From positions 240 to 64,239 of the forward strand of contig NZ_MRDH01000016.1 of the NCBI RefSeq assembly GCF_002008225.1: DNA of 64,000 nucleotides, in the 5' to 3' direction. The stretch's first letter is position 1. Every line of letters begins with the position of its first letter. The notes under the pieces are model-generated. The model saw only the letters and a list, made by a program, of their open reading frames with translations. It did no database searches and was not told the DNA's origin. The stretch is from Agrobacterium salinitolerans. Its GTDB lineage: Bacteria; Pseudomonadota; Alphaproteobacteria; Rhizobiales; Rhizobiaceae. Of the stretch, positions 51,801-62,783 are shown piece by piece. The position numbers and the translations under genes were made by a program.

Positions 51801-52541
51801 CTATTCCTGACTTTCAAGCCGATATCGGGAACCGGGGTAGAGCAGCCGTACGGATGTGACGGCGCGGCTCGATGACCAGGTTCTGCGGCGCACGAGAAGG
51901 CAAGGCTCGTTTCGGCTTATGGCCATCAATTTGCACTCCCAGGGCTGGGGCGACGCGGCCTCGATGAATTGCTCTGTTCGCGAAATTGGCGCCGCCGCTG
52001 TCAAATAGGCATTCGGGGTGAGCGTATTGAAATCCTGCATCAGATAATCTGGAGCGATCTCCGCATTGACGAAGCGATCTTCAAGCTGGATCGGCACATC
52101 GTCTTCGTGGTGGACAATGATGGAGTGAAAAACCTTCGCTCCCACGGCGATCTCCAGCGCCGTTGCGAGATCGGGACCGCAAACTTCCGTCTGGGCAAGG
52201 ATCAGGCTCGGTCGATGCGTCGAACCGCGCTCCTTGATCTCGTCGGCAATGTTGCGCACGCCCATCATGCCAGCGCTTCGCTTTTTCGGGGCGACAAAAG
52301 ACCCGCGCCCCTGCACACGAACGATCACCCCCTCGGTTGCCAACTCCCGCAGCGCTCGGTTCGCCGTCATCCGACTGACACCCAGCATGTCCACGATTTC
52401 GTTTTCGGAGGGTATCCTGTGGTTCGTCAACCACTCTCCGCCGGCGATCTTTTCCTTGATCTGTTCTTTCACTCGCTCATACAGCGGCAGGGAGGAGCGA
52501 TCGCCCGAGACAGGAAACTCGTTTTCGATGACGGACAGCAT
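51801..52541 (-). CDS. hutC: HutC-type GntR-family repressor
   Basis: A 246-residue regulator. The GntR winged helix (about 17-85) has LYERVKEQIKEKIAGGEW, PSENEIVDMLGVSRMTANRAL and GVIVRVQGRGSFVA. The UTRA domain (about 100-240) ends with LVRRRTWSSS and LYPGSRYRL, typical HutC residues. HutC proteins repress histidine-use genes and respond to urocanate. ATG 52541 follows TAGGAG; the frame is open to 52700 without support. It is divergent from the hutXWV-like operon and two matching palindromes lie between them. Confidence 0.9.
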   Translation of the reverse strand: MLSVIENEFPVSGDRSSLPLYERVKEQIKEKIAGGEWLTNHRIPSENEIVDMLGVSRMTANRALRELATEGVIVRVQGRGSFVAPKKRSAGMMGVRNIADEIKERGSTHRPSLILAQTEVCGPDLATALEIAVGAKVFHSIIVHHEDDVPIQLEDRFVNAEIAPDYLMQDFNTLTPNAYLTAAAPISRTEQFIEAASPQPWECKLMAISRNEPCLLVRRRTWSSSRAVTSVRLLYPGSRYRLESQE

Positions 52542-52641
52542 TGAAACTCCTAAAAATCGGGCGACTGCACAAAACGCAGCCAGAATCCGCACAAGCACAA
52601 AATTATCACATCCCGCCTTGCTTGTCTTTCGCAAATGTGTG

Positions 52642-52659
52642 AAGTTACATATACAACTT
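52642..52659. promoter_or_regulatory. HutC-like operator, proximal to hutC
   Basis: AAGTT-ACATATAC-AACTT is an inverted repeat with core GTTACATATACAAC. It lies about 100 bases before hutC and has the same arms and spacing as the site at 52902. Confidence 0.7.
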
Positions 52660-52901
52660 GAGGGGAAAATAATGGCGAGCGAAGACTCGATCTCTGGCAA
52701 CAGCAGGTCTCGCGCCGATGGCCGTGGCGATACTCAAATGCCCGCCCAGCGCAAGGGCAGCGGCTGCCATGCCGAAGGCGAAGCTGTATTTGATGGCGCG
52801 CCTAGGCAATATGTGCTGAAAGCTCACCCTTTTCAGAACCAACCAGCGCAGGCGCGTTCGACCCAACGTCGCCGATACGCGCGTCCCATGCGAATTTTTC
52901 A

Positions 52902-52919
52902 AAGTTGTATAGTGAACTT
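52902..52919. promoter_or_regulatory. HutC-like operator, proximal to the hutXWV operon
   Basis: AAGTT-GTATAGTG-AACTT has the same five-base arms and eight-base spacer as the site at 52642. It lies about 195 bases before hutX. Confidence 0.65.
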
Positions 52920-53113: not shown

Positions 53114-54151
53114 ATGCTGAATTCAAAGTTGAAAATCGCGCTGGCCACCACCGCGCTTATCATGGGAGCCTATGCCGGGTCAGCGAGAGCAGAAGGCTAT
53201 TGCGCCGCTGGAAAGACCATCACCTTCGCCGGCATCGACTGGGAAAGCGGCGCTTTCATCACCGAAGTCATGAAGGAAATCCTCTCCAAGGGCTATGATT
53301 GCAAGGTCGATTCCATTCCCGGTAACTCCGTGACGCTGGAACAGGCAACCGCCAATAACGACGTGCAGATCTTTGCTGAAGAATGGATCGGCCGCTCCGA
53401 CGTCTGGAACAAGGCTGCGGAAGCCGGACAGGTAACATCGGTCGGCAAGACCTTCGTCGGCGCCGCCGAAGGCTGGTTCGTGCCGGAGTATCTGGTCAAG
53501 GGCGACCCGGCGAAAGGCATCGAAGCCAAAGCTCCGGACCTGAAGAACGTCGACCAGCTTTCCGACCCGAAGATCGTTGAACTGTTCAAGGATCCGGAAG
53601 AGCCCGCCAAGGGCCGCTTCCTCAATTGCCCCTCGGGCTGGACCTGCGAAGGCGTCAACACCGCAAAGCTGCAGGCCTACAAGCTGGAAGCAAACTATGT
53701 GAACTTCCGGCCCGGCACCGGCACCGCTCTCGACGCCGCAATTGCCGCCGCCTATCTCCAGGGCGAACCGATGCTGTTCTATTACTGGAGCCCGACGGCA
53801 ATCATGGGCAAATACAAGCTCATCCAGCTGCAGGAGCCGGCCTATAGCGACGCTTGCTGGAAGGAACTGACGAGCGCCGATGGAAAGCGCGACGCCGGTT
53901 GCGCCTTCCCCTCCGTCGAGGTGGCCTATGGCGTGAACAGCACCTTTGCGAAGGAAGCACCGGAGATCATTGCGATCCTTGAAAAGGCGACCTTCCCGTT
54001 GACGGAGATCAACGCCAGCCTCGCCTACATGACCGACAAGCAGGTCGATGCGACAGCCGCCGCCAAAACCTTCCTTCAGACCAAGAGCGATGTCTGGGGC
54101 AGCTGGGTTTCTGCCGACGCCAAGGCGCGTATCGAAGCCGCCGTCAAGTAA
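53114..54151 (+). CDS. hutX: ABC transporter substrate-binding protein, HutX-like (OpuAC family)
   Basis: A 345-residue periplasmic binding protein. A signal peptide ends near SARAEG (about residue 24). The OpuAC/glycine-betaine type fold is shown by ITFAGIDWESGAFITEV, FRPGTGTALDAAIAAAYLQG and LFYYWSPTAIMGKYKL. The family binds choline, betaines, proline or histidine; the HutC regulator and ammonia-lyase homologue in the operon favour histidine or a relative, as for S. meliloti HutX. ATG 53114 follows AAGGGGA. A hairpin right after the stop may raise its level over the permease. Confidence 0.87.
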   Translation: MLNSKLKIALATTALIMGAYAGSARAEGYCAAGKTITFAGIDWESGAFITEVMKEILSKGYDCKVDSIPGNSVTLEQATANNDVQIFAEEWIGRSDVWNKAAEAGQVTSVGKTFVGAAEGWFVPEYLVKGDPAKGIEAKAPDLKNVDQLSDPKIVELFKDPEEPAKGRFLNCPSGWTCEGVNTAKLQAYKLEANYVNFRPGTGTALDAAIAAAYLQGEPMLFYYWSPTAIMGKYKLIQLQEPAYSDACWKELTSADGKRDAGCAFPSVEVAYGVNSTFAKEAPEIIAILEKATFPLTEINASLAYMTDKQVDATAAAKTFLQTKSDVWGSWVSADAKARIEAAVK

Positions 54152-54187: not shown

Positions 54188-54246
54188 CCCGTCAGGACAG
54201 GGGCCGGCTACCGCACATGGGGTCGGCAGGCGCGAGGACGACACCA

Positions 54247-55104
54247 ATGTTTCCTGAAGTTTTCCATATTTCCATCCGCGGCCCGATCAATGAGATCGTG
54301 CGCTCGCTGGTGGTGAATTACGGCTCCGTTTTCAAGGCGATCTCGCAGACGATCCTGCAGGCGATCCTCTTTGTGGAATGGGTGCTGCGCGGTCTGCCGT
54401 GGTGGGCCATTTTTCTGGTCTTCCTGGTGCTCGCCTGGTTCGCGTCGAAGAAGATTTCGCTCGTCATCATGGTGGCGGTGATGCTGTTCATCGTCGGCGC
54501 GCTCGGTCTCTGGGACCTGACGATGCAGACGCTGGCGCTGATGCTGATTGCCAGCCTCATTTCCATCGTCATCGGGGTACCCATGGGTATCCTGCTTGCC
54601 AAAAGCGAATGGGCTCGGCGCATCACCCTGCCGATACTCGATGTCATGCAGACCATGCCGAGCTTCGTCTATCTCATTCCCGCCATCATGCTTTTCGGCC
54701 TCGGCAAGGTCCCGGCCGTACTGGCCACCATCGTTTATGCCGTGCCGCCGCTGATCCGCCTGACCGATCTCGGCATCCGGCAGGTGGACCGGGAAGTGGT
54801 GGAGGCGGCGACCGCATTTGGCGGCAGCCCGAGACAAATCCTCTTCGGCGTCGAATTGCCGCTCGCCACGCCCACGATCATGGCCGGCCTCAACCAGACG
54901 ATCATGATGGCGCTCTCCATGGTCGTCGTCGCCTCGATGATCGGCGCGCGCGGCCTTGGCGAGCAGGTTCTGAACGGCATCCAGACGCTCGATGTCGGCA
55001 AGGGCCTCGAAGCAGGTCTCGGCATCGTTATTCTCGCAATCGTGCTCGATCGCATCACCCAGGGTTTCGGTCGATCCAGCCGGAAGGAAATGGGCAATGA
55101 CTGA
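54247..55104 (+). CDS. hutW: ABC transporter permease, HutW-like (ProW/OpuAB family)
   Basis: A 285-residue inner-membrane permease with six or more hydrophobic segments between about 45 and 270. The BPD_transp_1 region contains the EAA-type loop EAATAFGGSPRQILFGVELPLATPTI (glycine at the conserved place). ATG 54247 follows GAGG. The end overlaps the ATPase gene by 8 bases. It belongs with the binding protein before it and the ATPase after it. Confidence 0.9.
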   Translation: MFPEVFHISIRGPINEIVRSLVVNYGSVFKAISQTILQAILFVEWVLRGLPWWAIFLVFLVLAWFASKKISLVIMVAVMLFIVGALGLWDLTMQTLALMLIASLISIVIGVPMGILLAKSEWARRITLPILDVMQTMPSFVYLIPAIMLFGLGKVPAVLATIVYAVPPLIRLTDLGIRQVDREVVEAATAFGGSPRQILFGVELPLATPTIMAGLNQTIMMALSMVVVASMIGARGLGEQVLNGIQTLDVGKGLEAGLGIVILAIVLDRITQGFGRSSRKEMGND

Positions 55105-55927
55105 TATCCATATCCGCAACGTGTCCAAGATATTCGGCGGCAACTGGAAAGCTGCGCTGACCATGGCCCAGCAGGGCGCGGAAAAAAGCGAAATCCTGGC
55201 AAAAACGGGATGCAGCGTCGGCCTCGACAATGTCAGCCTCGACATCGAAGCCGGCCGCATTTTCGTGATCATGGGCCTCTCTGGTTCCGGCAAGTCGACG
55301 CTGGTGCGCCACATCAACCGGCTGATCGAACCGACAAGCGGCGAGATTCTCGTCGGCGGCGACAATGTTCTAGCACTGAAGCCCAAAGACCTGCGCGACT
55401 TCCGCAACCGACGCGTCAGCATGGTGTTCCAGAATTTCGGTCTGATGCCGCACCGCACCGTCTTGCAGAACGTCGTTTATGGCCAGCGCGTGCGCGGGCT
55501 GACCAAGGCCCACGCACGGCCCATCGGCATGAAGTGGATCGAGACCGTCGGCCTTTCCGGCTATGAGGACAAGTTTCCGCACCAGCTTTCCGGCGGCATG
55601 AAGCAGCGCGTCGGTCTGGCCCGGGCACTCGCGGCCGATACCGACGTCATACTGATGGACGAGGCCTTTTCGGCGCTCGACCCCTTGATCCGCGCCGACA
55701 TGCAGGACCAGTTGCTGCAGCTCGAAAAGAACCTGCACAAGACCATCGTTTTCATCACCCACGATCTCGACGAGGCGCTCCGCATCGGCGCACAGATCGC
55801 GATCCTGAAGGACGGCAAACTGGTGCAGGTTGGAACGCCGGATCAGATTCTCAACAGCCCCGCAAATGATTATGTCGCCCGTTTCGTGGAACGCCGCGCG
55901 GGTGCGGGGGAAGGCCAGCATGGCTGA
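55097..55927 (+). CDS. hutV: ABC transporter ATP-binding protein, HutV-like (ProV/OpuAA family)
   Basis: A 276-residue ATPase. Walker A is GLSGSGKST (about 60-68), the Q-loop is FQNFGLMPHRTV, the signature is LSGGMKQRVGLARAL, Walker B is VILMDEAFSALDP and the H-loop is FITHD. Unlike long ProV proteins it ends soon after the NBD and has no paired CBS domains, so osmotic gating is unlikely. ATG 55097 lies within the permease's 3' end; its stop overlaps the next gene by 8 bases, indicating a tightly coupled operon. Confidence 0.92.
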   Translation: MTDIHIRNVSKIFGGNWKAALTMAQQGAEKSEILAKTGCSVGLDNVSLDIEAGRIFVIMGLSGSGKSTLVRHINRLIEPTSGEILVGGDNVLALKPKDLRDFRNRRVSMVFQNFGLMPHRTVLQNVVYGQRVRGLTKAHARPIGMKWIETVGLSGYEDKFPHQLSGGMKQRVGLARALAADTDVILMDEAFSALDPLIRADMQDQLLQLEKNLHKTIVFITHDLDEALRIGAQIAILKDGKLVQVGTPDQILNSPANDYVARFVERRAGAGEGQHG

Positions 55928-57464
55928 CACGATCACCATCGATCGTCCCCTCACCTGGCAAGAGATCGCCGCTGTTGCAAAAGGCGCCACGCTTTCCCTG
56001 TCGGACAAAGCGTGGCGGCGCATTGCCGAAGCCCGCGCCGTCGTCGATGCGCTCGTCGAAAAACGGGTGCGCGGTTACGGCATCAACACAGGTGTCGGCG
56101 CGCTCTGCGATGTGATTGTAGACATCCCACAGCAGCAGGCTCTTTCCCGCAACATCCTGCTCAGCCACTCCTGCGGCGTCGGCGAACCGCTCGGGCGCGA
56201 AGAAACACGGGCCATCATGGCCGCCCAGATCAACAACTTCGCGCATGGTTATTCCGGCGTGCAGGTCAAAACGGTCGAAGCGCTGCTCGCCCTGCTGAAT
56301 GGCGATATTCTTCCCGTTATTCCGTCAAAGGGCTCGGTGGGTTACCTCACCCATGCCGCGGCCATAGGGCTGGTGCTGATCGGCGAAGGCCGGGCCCGCC
56401 ATGGGGGCGAACTCATCAGCGGCCGGCAGGGGCTCGCAAAGCTTAGCCTCGAACCCATGGTTCTGCAGGCGAAGGAAGGGCTCAGCCTCGTCAACGGCAC
56501 ACCCTGCGCCACCGGCCTCGCCAGCCTCGCGCTTGCGCGCACGGCTTCGCTCCTTGAATGGGCCGATGCGGCAGCAGCAATGAGCTATGAAAACCTTGGC
56601 GCGCAGGCCGATCCCTTCGCCGCAGGGCCGCTGGCACTGCGCAGCTCGCCCGGCATCCAGACTGTCGGCGCAAACCTGCGCCAGCTTCTGGCGGCAAGCC
56701 CGCTGCTTGCCCGGTCAGCCGGATCCCGCACGCAGGATCCGCTTAGCCTGCGCGCCGTGCCGCAGGTGCACGGCGCCGTTCGCGACAGCGTCGCGCAGAT
56801 CGCGGACGTCGTAGACCGCGAACTCGCGAGTGTCACGGACAACCCGGTCGTCGGCGGCACGCCGCAGTCGCCCGAGGTCCACTCCCAGGCCCACGCCGTC
56901 GGTGCGTCGCTCGGGCTTGCCATGGATGGGCTGGCAACGGCCGCAGCCGAACTCGCGGCGATTTCCGAGCGGCGTATCGACCGGCTCGTCAACCCGCTTG
57001 TCAGCGGGCTGCCCGCCTTTCTGGCGGAAGGTGATGGTGTCTGTTCCGGTTTCATGATCATCCAGTACACCGCCGCAGCGCTTGCCGCGGAAAACCGCCG
57101 CCTCGCCGCCCCCGCCAGCCTCGATGGCGGCATCACCTCCGCCTTGCAGGAGGATATATTGACTCACGCCACCGCCGCCGCCGACAAGACGCTTTCGATT
57201 ATCGGCAACCTGGAAACCATTCTCGCAATCGAGATCATGAGCGCCGCGCAGGCTTACGACATGCAGCCTGACGAAGGCGGCCGTGCGCCCGGCACCGATA
57301 GGCTTTATCAGCGCGTCCGGACGGCGGCACCATTTTACCGCGATGACCAGCCGCTCAACAATCTGGTAGCCGCCATTCGGGAAATGTTGCAAACCACGCT
57401 TACGGGGATAGGTGTCGACAACATCAACCCGCCTCACGCAGAATGCTCATCCCATTCTTTCTGA
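55920..57464 (+). CDS. HAL/PAL-family ammonia-lyase homologue lacking the MIO tripeptide
   Basis: A 514-residue protein, full length for histidine ammonia-lyase. The fold is clear: GYGINTGVG (52-60), RNILLSHSCGVGEP, LVNGTPCATG and IIGNLETILAIEI. At 138-141 GSVG is followed directly by YLTHAAAIGLVLIGEG. In HutH this is GSVG-ASG-DLAPLAH, so the three residues that cyclise to the MIO electrophile are absent without frame loss. The usual Tyr of QDxYSLR is Leu275 (QDPLSLR), while Gln272, Arg278, Tyr53 and Asn192 remain. Histidine deamination by the normal mechanism seems impossible. It is last in the hutXWV-like operon, overlapping hutV by 8 bases, so it may act with the transporter or on its substrate. 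Confidence 0.88.
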   Translation: MADTITIDRPLTWQEIAAVAKGATLSLSDKAWRRIAEARAVVDALVEKRVRGYGINTGVGALCDVIVDIPQQQALSRNILLSHSCGVGEPLGREETRAIMAAQINNFAHGYSGVQVKTVEALLALLNGDILPVIPSKGSVGYLTHAAAIGLVLIGEGRARHGGELISGRQGLAKLSLEPMVLQAKEGLSLVNGTPCATGLASLALARTASLLEWADAAAAMSYENLGAQADPFAAGPLALRSSPGIQTVGANLRQLLAASPLLARSAGSRTQDPLSLRAVPQVHGAVRDSVAQIADVVDRELASVTDNPVVGGTPQSPEVHSQAHAVGASLGLAMDGLATAAAELAAISERRIDRLVNPLVSGLPAFLAEGDGVCSGFMIIQYTAAALAAENRRLAAPASLDGGITSALQEDILTHATAAADKTLSIIGNLETILAIEIMSAAQAYDMQPDEGGRAPGTDRLYQRVRTAAPFYRDDQPLNNLVAAIREMLQTTLTGIGVDNINPPHAECSSHSF

Positions 57465-58331
57465 AGCGTAAGAGCCGGGACCGGGGGGGAACACCACGGT
57501 TCGGCTGCCGTTCAGGAATAAACGCCGATGAATATGGGCGTGTATGGCGCGCGCCAGCACCTGCGCCTCCACGTCGCGGCCGAGCGACACGTAATCCTCC
57601 GCCGACTGGGCATGGGTGATGCGCACGATATCCTGTTCGATGATCGGTCCCTCATCCAGATCGGCGGTCACATAATGCGCCGTCGCGCCAATCAGCTTCA
57701 CACCGCGCTGATAGGCCTGCTTGTAAGGGTTGGCGCCCTTAAAAGAGGGCAGGAAGGAGTGGTGGATATTGATGATCCTGCCCGACATCGCCTCGCACAT
57801 CCTGTCGGAAAGCACCTGCATGTAACGTGCCAGCACGATGAGTTCCGTACCCGAGCTTTCCACGATCTCCATGATCCGGGCTTCGGCCTGCGGCTTGTTC
57901 TGTTTCGTCACCGGAATGTGGTGGAACGGAATGTCGTGATTGACGACAACCTTCTGGTAATCGAAATGATTGGAGACGACGCCGACAATATCGATCGGCA
58001 GCGCCCCGATGCGCCAGCGATAGAGCAGGTCATTGAGGCAATGGCCGAAGCGCGACACCATCAAAAGAACCTTCATCCGCTCTGCCTGATCGTGCAGCGC
58101 CACCTCCATGCCGAATTTTTCCGAGATGGGCGCCAGCCCGTCCATCAACGCGTCGCGTGTCTCACCCTCCTCGGAAATGAAACCCACGCGTATGAAAAAA
58201 CGGCCTGTGCCGAGATCGTCGAACTGCGAACTGTCGACGATGTTGCACCCCTTCTCAGCGAGAAAGCCTGAAAGGGCGGCGACGATGCCGCGGGTAGACT
58301 TGCATGTCACGGTCAGGACGAAGTTCGTCAT
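57447..58331 (-). CDS. purU: Formyltetrahydrofolate deformylase
   Basis: A 294-residue enzyme releasing formate from 10-formyl-THF. An N-terminal ACT domain (about 4-80: VLTVTCKSTRGIVAALSGFL) precedes a formyltransferase-fold domain (about 85-280: VLLMVSRFGHCLNDLLYRW, INIHHSFLPSFKGANPY and ATAHYVTADLDEGPIIEQD, which carry the catalytic Asn/His/Asp). Next to the glx/glnT cluster it would return C1 units released from methylated amines to the free folate pool. The 3' end overlaps the convergent lyase homologue by 18 bases. A hairpin separates it from glnT. Confidence 0.94.
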   Translation of the reverse strand: MTNFVLTVTCKSTRGIVAALSGFLAEKGCNIVDSSQFDDLGTGRFFIRVGFISEEGETRDALMDGLAPISEKFGMEVALHDQAERMKVLLMVSRFGHCLNDLLYRWRIGALPIDIVGVVSNHFDYQKVVVNHDIPFHHIPVTKQNKPQAEARIMEIVESSGTELIVLARYMQVLSDRMCEAMSGRIINIHHSFLPSFKGANPYKQAYQRGVKLIGATAHYVTADLDEGPIIEQDIVRITHAQSAEDYVSLGRDVEAQVLARAIHAHIHRRLFLNGSRTVVFPPGPGSYASERMG

Positions 58332-58357
58332 CTGGCGATCTTTCTGTCATCAATATG

Positions 58358-58386
58358 GAAAACGCCCGCGCGGCTGGACGCGCGGG
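58358..58386 (-). terminator. Hairpin between glnT and purU
   Basis: On the minus strand CCCGCGCG, loop TCCAGC, CGCGCGGG is followed by CGTTTTCC. It could partly end transcripts before purU. Confidence 0.6.
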
Positions 58387-58418
58387 GAAAGCCGCAAGCG
58401 CGGCGGGGAAAATCGGGC

Positions 58419-59726
58419 TTAGACATCGAGGGTCGTCTGATGCTCCCATGCGGTGAACTGCGCGCAATAGCTGTTCCACTCCCCCTGCTTGAGTTTCAGA
58501 TAGGCATTCGAGAATTCCATGCCGAGCGCCTGCTGCAATTCCGCATCTTTCTCATATTCGCGCAGCGCATCGAGAAGGTTGAGCGGTAGCTTCGGTGCAT
58601 CCGTGACCGTATGGCCCTCGCGATACATGTCGATATCGTAGTGCGGACCGGGATCGGCCTTGGAGCGGACACCGGAAAGGCCAGCCGCGATGATGATGGC
58701 CTGCAACAGATAAGGGTTCACGGCTCCATCCGGCAGGCGCAGTTCGAACCGTCCCGGCCCCGGCACGCGCACCATATGGGTGCGGTTATTGCCGGTCCAG
58801 GTCACCGTATTCGGCGCCCAGGTCGCGCCGGAAACGGTACGCGGCGCGTTGATGCGCTTATAGGAATTGACCGTCGGATTGGTGACGGCCGCAAGCGCCG
58901 ACGCGTGTTTCATGATGCCGCCGAGAAACGTCTTGCCCTTGGCCGACAAACCGAACGGCATTTCCCAGTCGGCGAAGGCGTTGACCTTGCCGTCGAGGTC
59001 CCAGACCGAAATATGGGCATGGCAGCCATTGCCGGTCAGGCCCTTGAAAGGCTTCGGCATGAAGGTGGCGCGCAGCCCGTGTTTTTCGGCGACGGATTTG
59101 ACCATGAATTTAAAGAAGGAATGTTTGTCGGCGGTCTGCAGCGCGTCGTCATATTCCCAGTTCATCTCGAACTGGCCGTTCGCGTCCTCATGGTCGTTCT
59201 GGTAGGGCTTCCAGCCCAGCTCCAGCATATAGTCGCAAATCTCGGCGATCACATCGTAACGGCGCATCACCGCCTGCTGGTCGTAGCAGGGCTTTTCCGC
59301 TGTGTCGTATTCGTCGGAGATTTTCGCACCATCCGGCGAAATCAGGAAAAATTCCGGCTCCACGCCGGTCTTGACCCTGAGCCCTTCGCTTGCCGCCTCA
59401 GCGATGAGCTTTTTCAGCACCACGCGCGGCGCCTGCTCCACCGGCTGGTCTTCCATCATGCAATCGGCGGCGACCCAGGCGACATCCTTTTTCCATGGAA
59501 GCTGGATGACCGAAGAGGCGTCGGGCACGGCGAATAGATCGGGATGGGCGGGCGTCAAATCGAACCAGGTGGCGAAGCCTGCAAAACCCGCGCCATCCTT
59601 CTGCATATCAGCGATCGCTTCTGCAGGAACCAGCTTGGCGCGCTGGCCCCCGAAGAGATCGGTATAACTGATCATGAAATATTTGACGCCCTTTTCGGCA
59701 GCAAATTTGGAGAGGTCCAGTGTCAC
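58419..59726 (-). CDS. glnT: Glutamine-synthetase family protein GlnT (gamma-glutamylmethylamide synthetase type)
   Basis: A 435-residue enzyme. GS-family sites are visible: KTGVEPEFFL and QFEMNWEYDDALQTADKH (metal glutamates), GNGCHAHISVWD (the GxxHxHxS loop) and RVPGPGRFELRLPDGAVNPYL. In rhizobia this clade is called GlnT or type III; in methylotrophs the same clade is GmaS, joining glutamate and methylamine. Because it sits with glxBCD (mgs genes), GmaS activity is the favoured reading, with glutamine synthesis as alternative. The first codon is GTG after AAGGGG. A strong terminator lies just upstream, so it may be expressed separately from glxD. Confidence 0.88.
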   Translation of the reverse strand: MTLDLSKFAAEKGVKYFMISYTDLFGGQRAKLVPAEAIADMQKDGAGFAGFATWFDLTPAHPDLFAVPDASSVIQLPWKKDVAWVAADCMMEDQPVEQAPRVVLKKLIAEAASEGLRVKTGVEPEFFLISPDGAKISDEYDTAEKPCYDQQAVMRRYDVIAEICDYMLELGWKPYQNDHEDANGQFEMNWEYDDALQTADKHSFFKFMVKSVAEKHGLRATFMPKPFKGLTGNGCHAHISVWDLDGKVNAFADWEMPFGLSAKGKTFLGGIMKHASALAAVTNPTVNSYKRINAPRTVSGATWAPNTVTWTGNNRTHMVRVPGPGRFELRLPDGAVNPYLLQAIIIAAGLSGVRSKADPGPHYDIDMYREGHTVTDAPKLPLNLLDALREYEKDAELQQALGMEFSNAYLKLKQGEWNSYCAQFTAWEHQTTLDV

Positions 59727-59760
59727 GTCATTCCCCTTTTTTGAATATCAGACACTCATC

Positions 59761-59796
59761 AAAAAAGACGGGCACATCCTCCCAAATGCGCCCGTC
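59761..59796 (-). terminator. Intrinsic terminator between glxD and glnT
   Basis: On the minus strand GACGGGCGCA, loop TTTGGGAGGA, TGTGCCCGTC is followed by TTTTTTG. It lies between the glxD stop and the glnT start, inside what otherwise looks like one operon. Confidence 0.8.
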
Positions 59797-59808
59797 CGTC
59801 TTTATGGC

Positions 59809-61137
59809 TTAAAAGCTGCCTTTGCCCGGGAACCAGCTGGTTCCCGCCAGCGGAACCTGCGCCATGGCGGCGGCCTCCATCGTCAGCGCCACCAGATCTT
59901 CCGGCTCCAGATTATGGAGATGGTTCTTGCCGCAGGCGCGCGCGATGGTCTGCGCCTCGAGCGTCATGACCTTCAGATAATTGGCAAGACGGCGGCCGGC
60001 GGCGACGGGATCGAGGCGTGCGGCAAGTTCGGGATCCTGCGTGGTGATTCCTGCGGGGTCTTTGCCTTCGTGCCAGTCATCATAAGCGCCTGCTGTCGTA
60101 CCGAGTTTTTGATATTCGTCTTCCCATTTCGGATCGTTATCACCCAGCGCTACCAGCGCCGCCGTGCCGATGGCGACAGCATCCGCACCAAGCGCCAACG
60201 CCTTGGCAACATCGGCACCGGATCGGATACCGCCAGAGACGATGAGCTGTACCTTCCGATGCATGCCGAGATCCTGAAGCGCCTGAACGGCGGGGCGAAT
60301 GCAGGCCAGCGTGGGCATGCCGACATTTTCGATGAAGACATCCTGCGTGGCGGCCGTGCCGCCCTGCATGCCATCCAGCACCACCACGTCGGCACCGGCC
60401 TTCACCGCCAGCGCCGTGTCGTAATAGGGCCGCGCACCACCGACCTTGATATAGATCGGCTTTTCCCAGTCGGTAATTTCACGCAGTTCGAGGATTTTGA
60501 TTTCCAGATCGTCGGGGCCGGTCCAATCAGGATGACGGCAGGCGGAGCGCTGATCGATGCCCTTCGGCAGGTTGCGCATATTGGCGACGCGATCGGAAAT
60601 CTTCTGGCCGAGCAACATGCCACCACCACCCGGTTTCGCACCCTGGCCGACAACGACCTCGATGGCGTCCGCGCGACGCAGATCCTTCGGATTCATGCCG
60701 TAACGGGAGGGCAGATATTGATAGACCAAAGTCTGGCTGTGGCCGCGCTCCTCATCCGTCATGCCGCCATCGCCCGTCGTGGTGGAGGTGCCAGCGATTG
60801 TCGCGCCGCGGCCGAGCGCTTCCTTGGCGTTGCCCGAAAGCGCGCCAAAACTCATGCCGGCAATGGTGATCGGCGTTTTCAGCGTGATAGGCTTCTTGGC
60901 GAAGCGCGTGCCGAGGGTCACGGTCGTATCGCATTTCTCACGATAACCTTCGAGCGGATAACGCGAGATGGAGGCGCCGAGAAACAACAGGTCGTCGAAA
61001 TGCGGCACCTTGCGCTTGGTGCCCGCACCACGAATGTCATAGATGCCGGTCGCCGCCGCGCGGCGGATTTCCGCCAGTGTATGATCGTCGAAAGTCGCGG
61101 ACTTGCGCGGCGGGGTGAAGGGGTTGTGATAGCTCAT
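59809..61137 (-). CDS. glxD: Glutamate-synthase-like FMN domain protein GlxD (MgsC-type)
   Basis: A 442-residue stand-alone version of the GltB FMN/synthase domain. Shared blocks are ITIAGMSFGALSGNAKEALG, GQGAKPGGGGMLLG, VLDGMQGGTAATQ and IVSGGIRSGADVAKALALGADAV. With GlxB (amidotransferase) and GlxC (beta-helix) it rebuilds glutamate synthase from three separate proteins. In methylotrophs the same trio is N-methylglutamate synthase. ATG 61137 begins the conserved MSYHNPFTPPRKS; the frame reaches 61317 inside glxC. It starts 16 bases after the glxC stop. Confidence 0.9.
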   Translation of the reverse strand: MSYHNPFTPPRKSATFDDHTLAEIRRAAATGIYDIRGAGTKRKVPHFDDLLFLGASISRYPLEGYREKCDTTVTLGTRFAKKPITLKTPITIAGMSFGALSGNAKEALGRGATIAGTSTTTGDGGMTDEERGHSQTLVYQYLPSRYGMNPKDLRRADAIEVVVGQGAKPGGGGMLLGQKISDRVANMRNLPKGIDQRSACRHPDWTGPDDLEIKILELREITDWEKPIYIKVGGARPYYDTALAVKAGADVVVLDGMQGGTAATQDVFIENVGMPTLACIRPAVQALQDLGMHRKVQLIVSGGIRSGADVAKALALGADAVAIGTAALVALGDNDPKWEDEYQKLGTTAGAYDDWHEGKDPAGITTQDPELAARLDPVAAGRRLANYLKVMTLEAQTIARACGKNHLHNLEPEDLVALTMEAAAMAQVPLAGTSWFPGKGSF

Positions 61138-61153
61138 CGGAATATCCCTCGCC

Positions 61154-61840
61154 TCAATACGCGTCGGCGTTGTCGATGTTGAAATTATAGAGCGTGCGGG
61201 CCGAACCGTAGCGTTTGAACTCGCTTGGGCTGACATCCGTGACGCCGGCCTTTTCGAGGAGTTCTGCAAGCTTTTCGAGATGTTCCGGCCGCATGTCCTT
61301 CTCGATACAATCGGCACCCAGGCTCTTCACCGAGCCGCGCACGAAAAGCTTCGCCTCATAAAGGGAATCGCCCAGCGCATCGCCCGCATCGCCGCAGACG
61401 ACGAGATGGCCGGACTGGCCCATGAAGGCGGACATATGGCCGATATTGCCTTTCACGACGATATCGATGCCCTTCATGGAAATGCCGCAGCGGGAGGCGG
61501 CATTGCCCTTTATGACCAGAAGCCCGCCGCGGCCGGTGGCGCCAGCATATTGCGAAGCATCGCCCTCAATGACGACGGTGCCCGACATCATGTTTTCGGC
61601 AACGCCCGGTCCGGCCGAGCCATGAACGGTGACTGTGCCGCCATCATTCATGCCGGCGCAATAATAACCGACCGAACCGCGCACATCGACGGTGACGGGG
61701 CTGTCGATGCCAACGGCGACGGCATGGTGGCCGCGCGGATTGACGACTTCGAATTCGGTATCGTTGACACCGGAGGAAAGACCGTGGAGCGCGCTATTCA
61801 ATTCACGCAAGGGTGTTTGGGAGAGATCGAAAACTGGCAT
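61154..61840 (-). CDS. glxC: GXGXG beta-helix protein GlxC (MgsB-type)
   Basis: A 228-residue protein matching the GltB C-terminal GXGXG domain. Repeating Gly-rich turns are evident: VTVDVRGSVGYYCAGMNDGG, VVIEGDASQYAGATGRGG, IVVKGNIGHMSAFMGQSG and LVVCGDAGDALGDSLY. The last 50 residues are helical. It should form the structural link of the three-part synthase. It lies 37 bases after glxB and 16 before glxD on one transcript. Confidence 0.9.
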   Translation of the reverse strand: MPVFDLSQTPLRELNSALHGLSSGVNDTEFEVVNPRGHHAVAVGIDSPVTVDVRGSVGYYCAGMNDGGTVTVHGSAGPGVAENMMSGTVVIEGDASQYAGATGRGGLLVIKGNAASRCGISMKGIDIVVKGNIGHMSAFMGQSGHLVVCGDAGDALGDSLYEAKLFVRGSVKSLGADCIEKDMRPEHLEKLAELLEKAGVTDVSPSEFKRYGSARTLYNFNIDNADAY

Positions 61841-61877
61841 GGATTATGACTTTCAAAACAGGCGCCGATGACGGGTC

Positions 61878-62783
61878 TCAGGCAGCCTTTTCATGGTCCC
61901 AGAAATAGACGGTCGCCGGCTCCGGCTCCCACACCCGGGCATTTTCAATGCCGGGCAGGTTGACCAGAGCGCGATATTCCGAACCGAAAGCGACATATTG
62001 GTCGGTCTCGGCCATGACAGCAGGCTTGCAAGCGATGGGATCACGCACCACGCCAAAACCGGATTTGGTGCCGACGACGAAAGTGAAGAAACCATCGAGA
62101 TCATCGAGCGCGCTTGTCAGTGCTTCGCCCAGATCCTTGCCCTTGGCCATTTCCGCCGTGAGATAGGCGGCGGCGACTTCCGAGTCGTTCTGGGTTTCGA
62201 ACGTCATGCCTTCGCGCACCAGTTCACGGCGCAGATTATTGTGGTTGGAAAGCGAACCATTATGCACCAGGCACTGGTCGGCACCGGTGGAAAAGGGGTG
62301 CGCGCCAAGCGTCGTCACTGCCGATTCCGTTGCCATGCGGGTATGGCCGATGCCATGGCTGCCGGCCATGGAACGCACGTCGAAACGGGCGACGACATCT
62401 TTCGGCAGGCCGGTTTCCTTATAGATTTCGACACTGTCGCCGGAACCCATCACCCGCACATTCGGCCGGATGGCGGCGAGAACCGCACGAATACCATCCA
62501 GCTTCCCGGCGGGAATATCGAGAACCGCATGGGTGCTTTTTACCGTGACCACGGCGTCAACGCTGTTTTCCGTGAGCGCCTCGGCAAGGCCGGAGAAATC
62601 GGCGGTCGGCTCGGCCGACTGGATCGTCACTTTCGCACGGCCATCGGCCGCACTTCCATAGATCGCGATGCCGGCCGAATCCGGCCCGCGATCGGTCATG
62701 GTGACGAGCATGTCCGAGAGCAGCTGACCCAGCTGCGGCTCAAGGCTTTTGTCTTTCAGGAATAGTCCAACAATGCCGCACAT
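61878..62783 (-). CDS. glxB: Class II glutamine amidotransferase GlxB (MgsA-type)
   Basis: A 301-residue Ntn-hydrolase amidotransferase. Met1 is followed by the nucleophile Cys2 (MCGIVGLFLKD). MTDRGPDSAGIAIYG, GIGHTRMATESAVTT and VHNGSLSNHNNLRREL are the glutamine-site blocks. It would supply ammonia (or, with the Mgs partners, transfer methylamine). No propeptide is present, unlike GltB in this window. It is the first gene of the glx run; inverted repeats of GGAAT/ATTCC lie upstream. Confidence 0.9.
   Translation of the reverse strand: MCGIVGLFLKDKSLEPQLGQLLSDMLVTMTDRGPDSAGIAIYGSAADGRAKVTIQSAEPTADFSGLAEALTENSVDAVVTVKSTHAVLDIPAGKLDGIRAVLAAIRPNVRVMGSGDSVEIYKETGLPKDVVARFDVRSMAGSHGIGHTRMATESAVTTLGAHPFSTGADQCLVHNGSLSNHNNLRRELVREGMTFETQNDSEVAAAYLTAEMAKGKDLGEALTSALDDLDGFFTFVVGTKSGFGVVRDPIACKPAVMAETDQYVAFGSEYRALVNLPGIENARVWEPEPATVYFWDHEKAA

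Follow-up and report, generated by a model that had tools for sequence, protein, structure and literature searches.

The window analyzed here, a 64,000-nucleotide stretch of Agrobacterium salinitolerans DNA (GCF_002008225.1, contig NZ_MRDH01000016.1), encodes at 55920-57464 on the + strand a lyase of the HutH (histidine ammonia-lyase) fold. The window lyase is a real, conserved HutH paralog that is free of the 4-methylideneimidazole-5-one (MIO) cofactor. It is very probably an imidazole-betaine trimethylammonia-lyase. Genome context points to hercynine as its main substrate, an assignment that is reasonably probable, with urocanate and trimethylamine (TMA) as the products.

Hercynine (histidine betaine, N,N,N-trimethylated histidine) would be imported by the ProXWV-type ATP-binding cassette (ABC) transporter encoded just upstream. 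The MIO-free lyase would then remove TMA from hercynine, and the urocanate that is left would enter the ordinary histidine utilization (Hut) pathway (HutU, HutI, and HutF/HutG). Urocanate would probably also act through the neighboring HutC to induce the operon. In this chemistry MIO may be dispensable because the quaternary trimethylammonium leaves readily as it is, in contrast to a free amino group, which has to be activated by MIO. As a whole, the explanation that combines hercynine import, TMA elimination, entry of urocanate into the Hut pathway, and induction through HutC is, on balance, probable. The accessible part of PMC8550315 lists hercynine as one of the quaternary ammonium compounds that soil contains in abundance, and soil hercynine is a plausible supply for the window lyase. 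An ergothioneine-specific ABC transporter from another study binds hercynine weakly, according to the available text (PMC9732360), and transporters of this kind can therefore be selective.

Sequence of the window lyase

The reading frame encodes 514 residues without an internal stop. The Lyase_aromatic domain (PF00221) is matched over residues 11-467 with 506 bits, but the curated NCBIfam models of HutH are not reached (TIGR01225, 455 of 539 bits; NF006871, 469 of 524 bits), and no clade-specific NCBIfam model was among the matches of the searches with the window lyase and HutC. The residues GSVG at 138-141 continue directly as YLTHAAAIGLVLIGEG (Y142-LTH). Alignment with HutH (GSVGASGDLAPLAH) shows that Ala-Ser-Gly has dropped out between Gly141 and Tyr142 and that Tyr142 stands where HutH has the next Asp. 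The Gly141-Tyr142 junction, the site of the absent MIO triad, lies at 56340-56345 (+ strand). In the alignments, Leu275, whose codon is at 56742-56744 (+ strand), replaces Tyr280 of the Pseudomonas putida histidine ammonia-lyase (HAL), the Tyr of QDPYSLR. The lyase ATG is at 55920 and the stop codon of ProV is at 55925-55927, so the two genes overlap by 8 bases. A first-pass annotation of this DNA had pointed to the loss of Ala-Ser-Gly after GSVG with intact frame and length, to Leu275 at the Tyr of QDxYSLR, and to the 8-base overlap with the transporter gene, and all three observations stand.

Conservation and spread of the clade

An order-level search covered 397 genomes with an ortholog threshold of E 1e-95 or better. 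Orthologs were found in 31 of these genomes, and the triad is absent from all 30 that were read (G087 gave no locus). At the same threshold, 27 of the 37 genomes of the genus have a match, the A. salinitolerans genome counted. The only other relative found in that genome is a canonical HutH with Ala-Ser-Gly, located on contig C16. A second set was drawn from a scan of named genomes as the best 80 of 568 relatives, which together with the window gives 81 rows. The 80 relatives include members of Agrobacterium, Shinella, Rhizobium, Neorhizobium, Sinorhizobium/Ensifer, Tistrella, Thalassospira, Labrys, Kaistia, Aureimonas, Pseudogemmobacter, Caballeronia, and Paraburkholderia. The triad is missing in 81/81 rows, where the loop reads GSVGYL[TSA], and all 23 canonical HutH proteins of the same loci read GSVGASGD.

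The ratio of nonsynonymous to synonymous substitution rates (dN/dS) against eight orthologs is 0.06-0.18 by the Nei-Gojobori method (NG86), indicating purifying selection, with dS saturated in the distant orthologs and Yang-Nielsen (YN00) estimates for six of the eight. The first-pass annotation had favored a repurposed lyase fold over a decayed gene, a view upheld by the missing triad in both sets and by the dN/dS values. The alignment of homologs that it suggested brings out a conserved MIO-less clade, with ProX in 50 of the 80 loci, and the dN/dS comparison it suggested gives no sign of strongly relaxed selection. A read error that would restore Ala-Ser-Gly, which it had raised, is ruled out by the deletion in every ortholog read, and the triad-less clade together with the dN/dS range rules out decay of hutH as well.

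In plasmid records, L137:12001-13494, L139:11998-13488, and L140:11998-13488 carry the label 'hutH: histidine ammonia-lyase'. The triad is absent from both sequences that were read (L137 and L139), and the hutH label of the triad-less plasmid proteins is apparently a misannotation.

Pocket residues and predicted structure

Tyr53, His83, Asn192, Gln272, Arg278, and Glu411 are invariant in the 81 aligned rows. Their counterparts in P. putida HAL are presumably Tyr53, His83, Asn195, Gln277, Arg283, and Glu414, with the numbering and roles that we assume for HAL. In the order-level set, the Asn192 position is a Ser in L031. The GGNFH segment around Phe329 of HAL has become QAHAV in the window lyase, and His325 is present in all 81 rows. 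This pattern suggests that the imidazole and carboxylate sites are retained and that the amino-activating part is gone. The roles of single residues in the pocket are putative.

The active site of the HutH fold is assembled from several subunits. The window lyase was modeled as a single chain with AlphaFold2 from a 48-row alignment, with a mean predicted local distance difference test (pLDDT) value of 88.7 and a predicted template modeling (pTM) score of 0.90. In Foldseek, P. putida HAL ranks first (template modeling (TM) scores 0.89/0.90, 36% identity), and the Treponema denticola ergothionase 6s7j ranks 16th (TM 0.87/0.90, 27% identity).

Ergothionase and the phylogeny of MIO-free lyases

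Ergothionase eliminates TMA from ergothioneine without MIO, as described in the available part of PMC13405746. A MIO-free HutH fold is thus in itself already known. The first-pass annotation held that the family needs MIO. This is true of the ammonia-lyases, as the accessible text of PMC3903478 has it, but not of the fold as a whole, as ergothionase 6s7j lacks the triad. The MIO-less members of the enzyme family found in the literature are engineered MIO-deficient mutants of phenylalanine ammonia-lyase (PAL) and the enzyme of PMC13405746, in the portions of these sources that were available.

In a tree without an outgroup (45 rows), the window clade is supported by 100/100, HutH by 96/89, and the ergothionases by 100/99. 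A rooted tree was built with three aminomutases as the outgroup (43 rows, with 7 of 50 rows left out). In this tree the ergothionases and the window clade group together (96/86), and one archaeal HAL, 7tqr, branches outside the rest of the HutH proteins. Long branches are involved in these trees, and the columns around the triad were kept in the alignments.

Genome neighborhood of the clade

In the 80 loci, some of them truncated at contig ends, the neighborhood was read over approximately 10 kb around the lyase. Open reading frames were called with a simple codon model, gene families were formed by single linkage, and the Hut families were named by scoring one member per family on NCBIfam. 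HutC is present in 64 loci, ProX in 50, ProW in 50, HutF in 48, and a HutD-like protein in 43, followed by HutU (32), HutI (29), HutG (26), canonical HutH (23), and a HisJQM-type transporter (10). The ProV family, found at 65 loci, includes other ATPases. On the Ves model, the HutD-like protein reaches 81 bits against a cut-off of 292; the name HutD follows a plasmid record. HutF, HutI, HutG, HutU, and HutH are all present in 21/80 loci, and the first four are found without HutH in 5/80.

Two gene orders recur. In one, HutC is set apart from HutF, ProXWV, lyase, HutI, HutH, HutG, HutU, and HutD (e.g., L049, L055, L060, L071, and L096). In the other, HutF, lyase, HutI, HutH, HutG, HutU, HutD, and HutC lie behind another gene set (e.g., L057, L061, and L066). 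A recurrent gene set (f17, f12, f13, and f14) takes the place of ProXWV ahead of HutF and the lyase in L057, L059, L061, L064, L066-L068, L070, L072, and L085. The transporter beside the lyase varies, being of the ProXWV type, of the HisJQMP type, or not adjacent at all. In Rhizobium phaseoli and Rhizobium bangladeshense, hutC and a HisJQMP-type transporter are followed by the lyase, with a complete hut operon adjoining, and in L043 and L107 the lyase sits between HutF and HutI with no transporter gene there.

Urocanate or thiourocanate as the product

NCBIfam has separate models for urocanate hydratase, thiourocanate hydratase, and S-methyl-thiourocanate hydratase. Of the 32 hydratases that neighbor the lyase, 11 were tested; each is a urocanase (911-992 bits against a cut-off of 375) and stays under both thiourocanate-type cut-offs. 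A true urocanase is found in 31/31 genomes with the lyase and lies within 10.4 kb of it in 20. The single urocanase-family gene of the A. salinitolerans genome, on C16, encodes a true urocanase (972 bits), and no hydratase over the thiourocanate cut-off was found in this genome.

Among the 397 genomes, 28 have a hydratase over the thiourocanate cut-off. Seven genomes have both this hydratase and the window-type lyase, and the two are near each other in none (on another contig in six, 2.07 Mb apart in one). From the 28 genomes, 19 thiourocanate hydratase loci were fetched and searched with a family threshold of 60 bits. Another relative of the family is present at 6/19, with the loop GSIGCAD, GSMGCAD, or GSLGTGD, and for the single such lyase tested, the top PDB match is ergothionase. 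The fetched loci cover six of the seven shared genomes, five of which have a second, ergothionase-type lyase at the hydratase locus. The thiourocanate route therefore seems to be served by its own lyase in genomes with both. These ergothionase-type lyases (L114-L117, L121, and L129) lie ~4-8 kb from the thiourocanate hydratase. For five of them, identity to the window protein within the matched region is 26-30%, and L129 was matched by HutH only. At the other 13 of the 19 loci (L118-L120, L122-L128, and L130-L132), no family relative was found at 60 bits or above, and another TMA-releasing enzyme or a lyase located elsewhere may serve there. Our initial guess that the window lyase is the organism's plain ergothionase was weakened by the missing thiourocanate-type hydratase and by the second lyase at the hydratase loci.

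Pseudogemmobacter humi (L098) has the order HutC, HutF, ProW, ProV, lyase, HutI, HutG, HutU, and HutD. A whole-genome PF00221 search found no canonical HutH in this assembly, whose completeness is unstated. Both of its PF00221 genes are MIO-less, namely the window-clade lyase and a second protein with the loop GSVGCGD (L157). With the sole HutH-like lyase of P. humi standing beside a complete urocanate pathway, urocanate should be its product, unless urocanate is imported.

Alternative explanations

The window lyase could instead be an ergothionase, or a lyase of S-methyl-ergothioneine or ergothioneine sulfonate, that eliminates TMA without MIO and yields a thio- or sulfo-urocanate. Such a role would fit the MIO-free HutH fold of ergothionase, the rooted tree that unites both, and the L137 relative in an S-methyl-ergothioneine gene set. 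In addition, Burkholderia sp. HME13 and A. radiobacter are reported to have an ergothionase in the accessible text of PMC13405746, where the A. radiobacter report cites work on an ergothioneine sulfonate pathway. The HME13 and A. radiobacter enzymes, which have no position in the tree, might belong to the window clade. This role is nevertheless unlikely. No hydratase of the host genome exceeds the thiourocanate cut-off, and the single urocanase-family gene there is a true urocanase; thiourocanate hydratase is near none of the seven clade members and has a different lyase at 5/6 of such loci; and the Asn192 motif kept in the window lyase is absent from the aligned ergothionase-type proteins. 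The product is better fixed by the neighborhood than the substrate, which would also suit a MIO-free lyase that forms urocanate from another imidazole compound, such as mono- or dimethylhistidine. Chemical reasoning makes secondary and tertiary amines poorer leaving groups without activation, however, and a betaine-type transporter adjoins the window lyase, so that this variant has very little probability.

The first-pass annotation had listed binding, sensing, and transporter-partner roles next to a non-MIO enzyme. The enzyme holds up, with TMA elimination, which was not proposed there, as the likely chemistry. A pseudoenzyme or sensor that helps the transporter or HutC by binding histidine, urocanate, or a betaine would account for the lost MIO, the overlap with the transporter ATPase gene, and the canonical HutH in 23/80 loci. 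Such a protein is improbable, given that the pocket positions are invariant across the 81 rows, that the lyase is retained while the transporter swaps between ProXWV and HisJQMP, that L043 and L107 keep the lyase between HutF and HutI without a transporter gene, that the P. humi protein is the sole HutH-like lyase there, and that MIO-free catalysis has precedent. A decayed or mis-sequenced hutH would explain the missing active-site triad and the scores under the HutH cut-offs, but its probability is negligible, since the identical deletion is found in all orthologs read, selection is purifying, and an intact canonical HutH is present elsewhere in the genome.

Several findings weigh against the hercynine explanation. 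In 11 of the 31 lyase genomes there is no urocanase nearby on the contig, and a hydratase of the urocanase superfamily is present in about half of the sampled genomes regardless (205/397). Five of the 80 loci lack any Hut family. P. humi is a single case: of the eight genomes covered by the whole-genome PF00221 search, seven contain a canonical HutH with Ala-Ser-Gly. In A. salinitolerans itself, the canonical hut genes are on a contig (C16) other than that of the window lyase, and the C16 site is related to, not identical with, the window sites (6 mismatches). No PF11927 dimethylamine-monooxygenase-type gene was found in this genome, where trimethylamine monooxygenase was not searched for; complete use of the TMA nitrogen by the PF11927 route is thus not supported, and TMA may be released rather than used. 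HutXWV of Sinorhizobium meliloti is reportedly a histidine transporter, going by a paper title alone. The approximately unbiased (AU) test rejects neither HutH with the window clade (p 0.069) nor HutH with the ergothionases (p 0.056), a result compatible with one loss of MIO as well as with two.

A further point on this side comes from a plasmid of A. tumefaciens AF1/95 (L137, NZ_CP124965.1), where a relative 60% identical to the window lyase lies in an S-methyl-ergothioneine gene set. Over their cut-offs in L137:810-13494 are an S-methyl thiourocanate hydratase (976 bits, cut-off 880), an S-methyl thiohydantoin desulfurase, ErtD, and ErtE, and the set also has a bisC-type S/N-oxide reductase below its cut-off. 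This plasmid operon is apparently an S-methyl-ergothioneine pathway. The pocket motifs of the L137 protein are nearly those of the window lyase, and it is placed within the larger subclade that holds the window lyase. Because of this context and these motifs, the clade does not appear to be restricted to hercynine, and its members as a whole are better named imidazole-betaine trimethylammonia-lyases.

The window locus and its host genome

A hutC-type GntR/UTRA repressor is encoded at 51801-52541 on the - strand (longest open reading frame, 51801-52700), with 285 bits on the HutC model TIGR02018 (cut-off 220) and matches to the Pfam GntR and UTRA domains. On the + strand follow a ProX/HutX-type periplasmic binding protein with an OpuAC domain (53114-54151; PF04069, 202 bits), whose best PDB matches are the glycine betaine/proline-type binding proteins 7yle and 1r9l, a ProW/HutW-type permease (54217-55104), for which the best NCBIfam models are choline and betaine permeases, below their cut-offs, and a ProV/HutV-type ATPase (55094-55927; TIGR01186, 348 bits, cut-off 327).

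Two operator-like palindromes, AAGTTACATATACAACTT at 52642-52659 (2 mismatches to AAGTTGTATATACAACTT) and AAGTTGTATAGTGAACTT at 52902-52919 (3 mismatches to AAGTTGTATATACAACTT), are the sole sites in the window within 4 mismatches of AAGTTGTATATACAACTT, and both are in the hutC-proX intergenic region. Across the 81 loci, hutC directly faces proX, hutF, hisJ, or the lyase in 46. The 8-mer GTTGTATA occurs in 42 of these 46 divergent intergenic regions against 0.2 expected, a count that is not independent, as the 8-mer was discovered by 8-mer counting on the same sequences. The motif TGTATATACA, exact or with one mismatch, is absent from the window, and a whole-genome search found no site for the gapped perfect form of the motif. 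Contig C16 carries hutF, hutI, hutH, hutG, and hutU together with a hutD-like and a second hutC-like gene; an exact TGTATATACA separates hutF from hutI. Two diverged HutC-type repressors are present in the genome (51801-52541 and L141:234-902; 30% identity), and their operator-like palindromes are related without being the same.

Downstream of the lyase, an adjoining module on the - strand begins with purU, encoding formyltetrahydrofolate deformylase (57447-58331; TIGR00655, 325 bits, cut-off 286). It continues with a type III glutamine synthetase-like gene (58419-59726; TIGR03105, 673 bits, over the cut-off), which we take to be a probable gamma-glutamylmethylamide synthetase (GMAS), and three genes (59809-62783) that resemble N-methylglutamate synthase subunits (glutamate synthase-, FwdC-, and glutamine amidotransferase-like) and may encode that enzyme. 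Beyond the window, the module goes on with DAO-type and sarcosine oxidase alpha/GCV_T-type genes (L112:335-5909). Together, 57447-62783 and L112:335-5909 probably form an N-methylglutamate pathway for methylamine. Besides the window, only two of the 80 loci, L032 and L040, have methylamine-type module genes; the lyase of L040 (A. arsenijevicii) is followed downstream, in the same direction, by the synthetase and glutamate synthase-like genes. A functional link between the lyase and the module was considered and is weakened by this narrow occurrence and by the missing PF11927 gene.

Implications

If the window lyase acts on a betaine, soil histidine betaine would gain a route to glutamate and TMA. 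Such hutH copies, and a rhizobial transporter operon already described, would receive a corrected annotation, and there would be a second sequence type for the study of cofactor-free catalysis in the HutH fold. A broader proposal is that a widespread lyase labeled hutH feeds hercynine into the Hut pathway in rhizobia, agrobacteria, and Burkholderiales, that the hutXWV operon, known for taking up histidine, in fact imports and degrades hercynine, and that the lyase has replaced histidase in some bacteria, such as P. humi; we regard this proposal as evenly balanced. If the replacement in P. humi is true, the hut operon there serves a betaine and not histidine. Hercynine is the precursor of ergothioneine, so the lyase could also compete for hercynine. 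Hercynine, TMA, and urocanate were found together in no open-access paper searched, which is weak evidence of novelty, as most subscription papers were outside that scope.

Comparison with known systems

The window lyase shares its fold, 36% identity, and six pocket positions with the histidine ammonia-lyase HutH of P. putida (1b8f and 1gkj). It differs from this enzyme in having no MIO triad, in the changes of Tyr280 to Leu and GGNFH to QAHAV, and in its scores under the HutH cut-offs.

In S. meliloti (L092), HutC, HutF, ProXWV, and the MIO-less lyase are consecutive. We take these genes to be SMc00669-SMc00674 (hutXWV/hutH2), with the lyase as hutH2. The part of PMC5596199 that was covered describes the SMc00669-SMc00674 operon as serving histidine and proline uptake, and it mentions neither the missing MIO nor a role as a betaine lyase. 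NCBIfam has models for Ert (ergothioneine utilization) proteins (NF058530-32, NF058538, and NF058540). The clade member L137 lies in such a set, but the window lyase has no genes of the Ert models beside it.

Like the window lyase, ergothionase 6s7j has the HutH fold without Ala-Ser-Gly and a Leu in place of the QDxYSLR Tyr (QDPLSFR in 6s7j). The equivalent of Leu275 is a Leu in all four ergothionase-type proteins aligned (6s7j, L114, L121, and L129), and the Tyr-Gly, His, and Arg motifs are conserved in both 6s7j and the window lyase. The loop of 6s7j (SSIGE-GD) is one residue shorter than that of HutH, whereas the loop of the window lyase (GSVGY---L) is three shorter, and the Asn192 motif is changed in 6s7j and absent from the ergothionase-type proteins aligned. 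The rhizobial proteins closest to ergothionase are found near thiourocanate hydratase and not near hut genes, unlike the window clade. The window lyase thus differs from the known MIO-free members in its three-residue deletion, in its retained HutH pocket residues, and in its HutC, HutF, HutI, HutG, and HutU neighbors.

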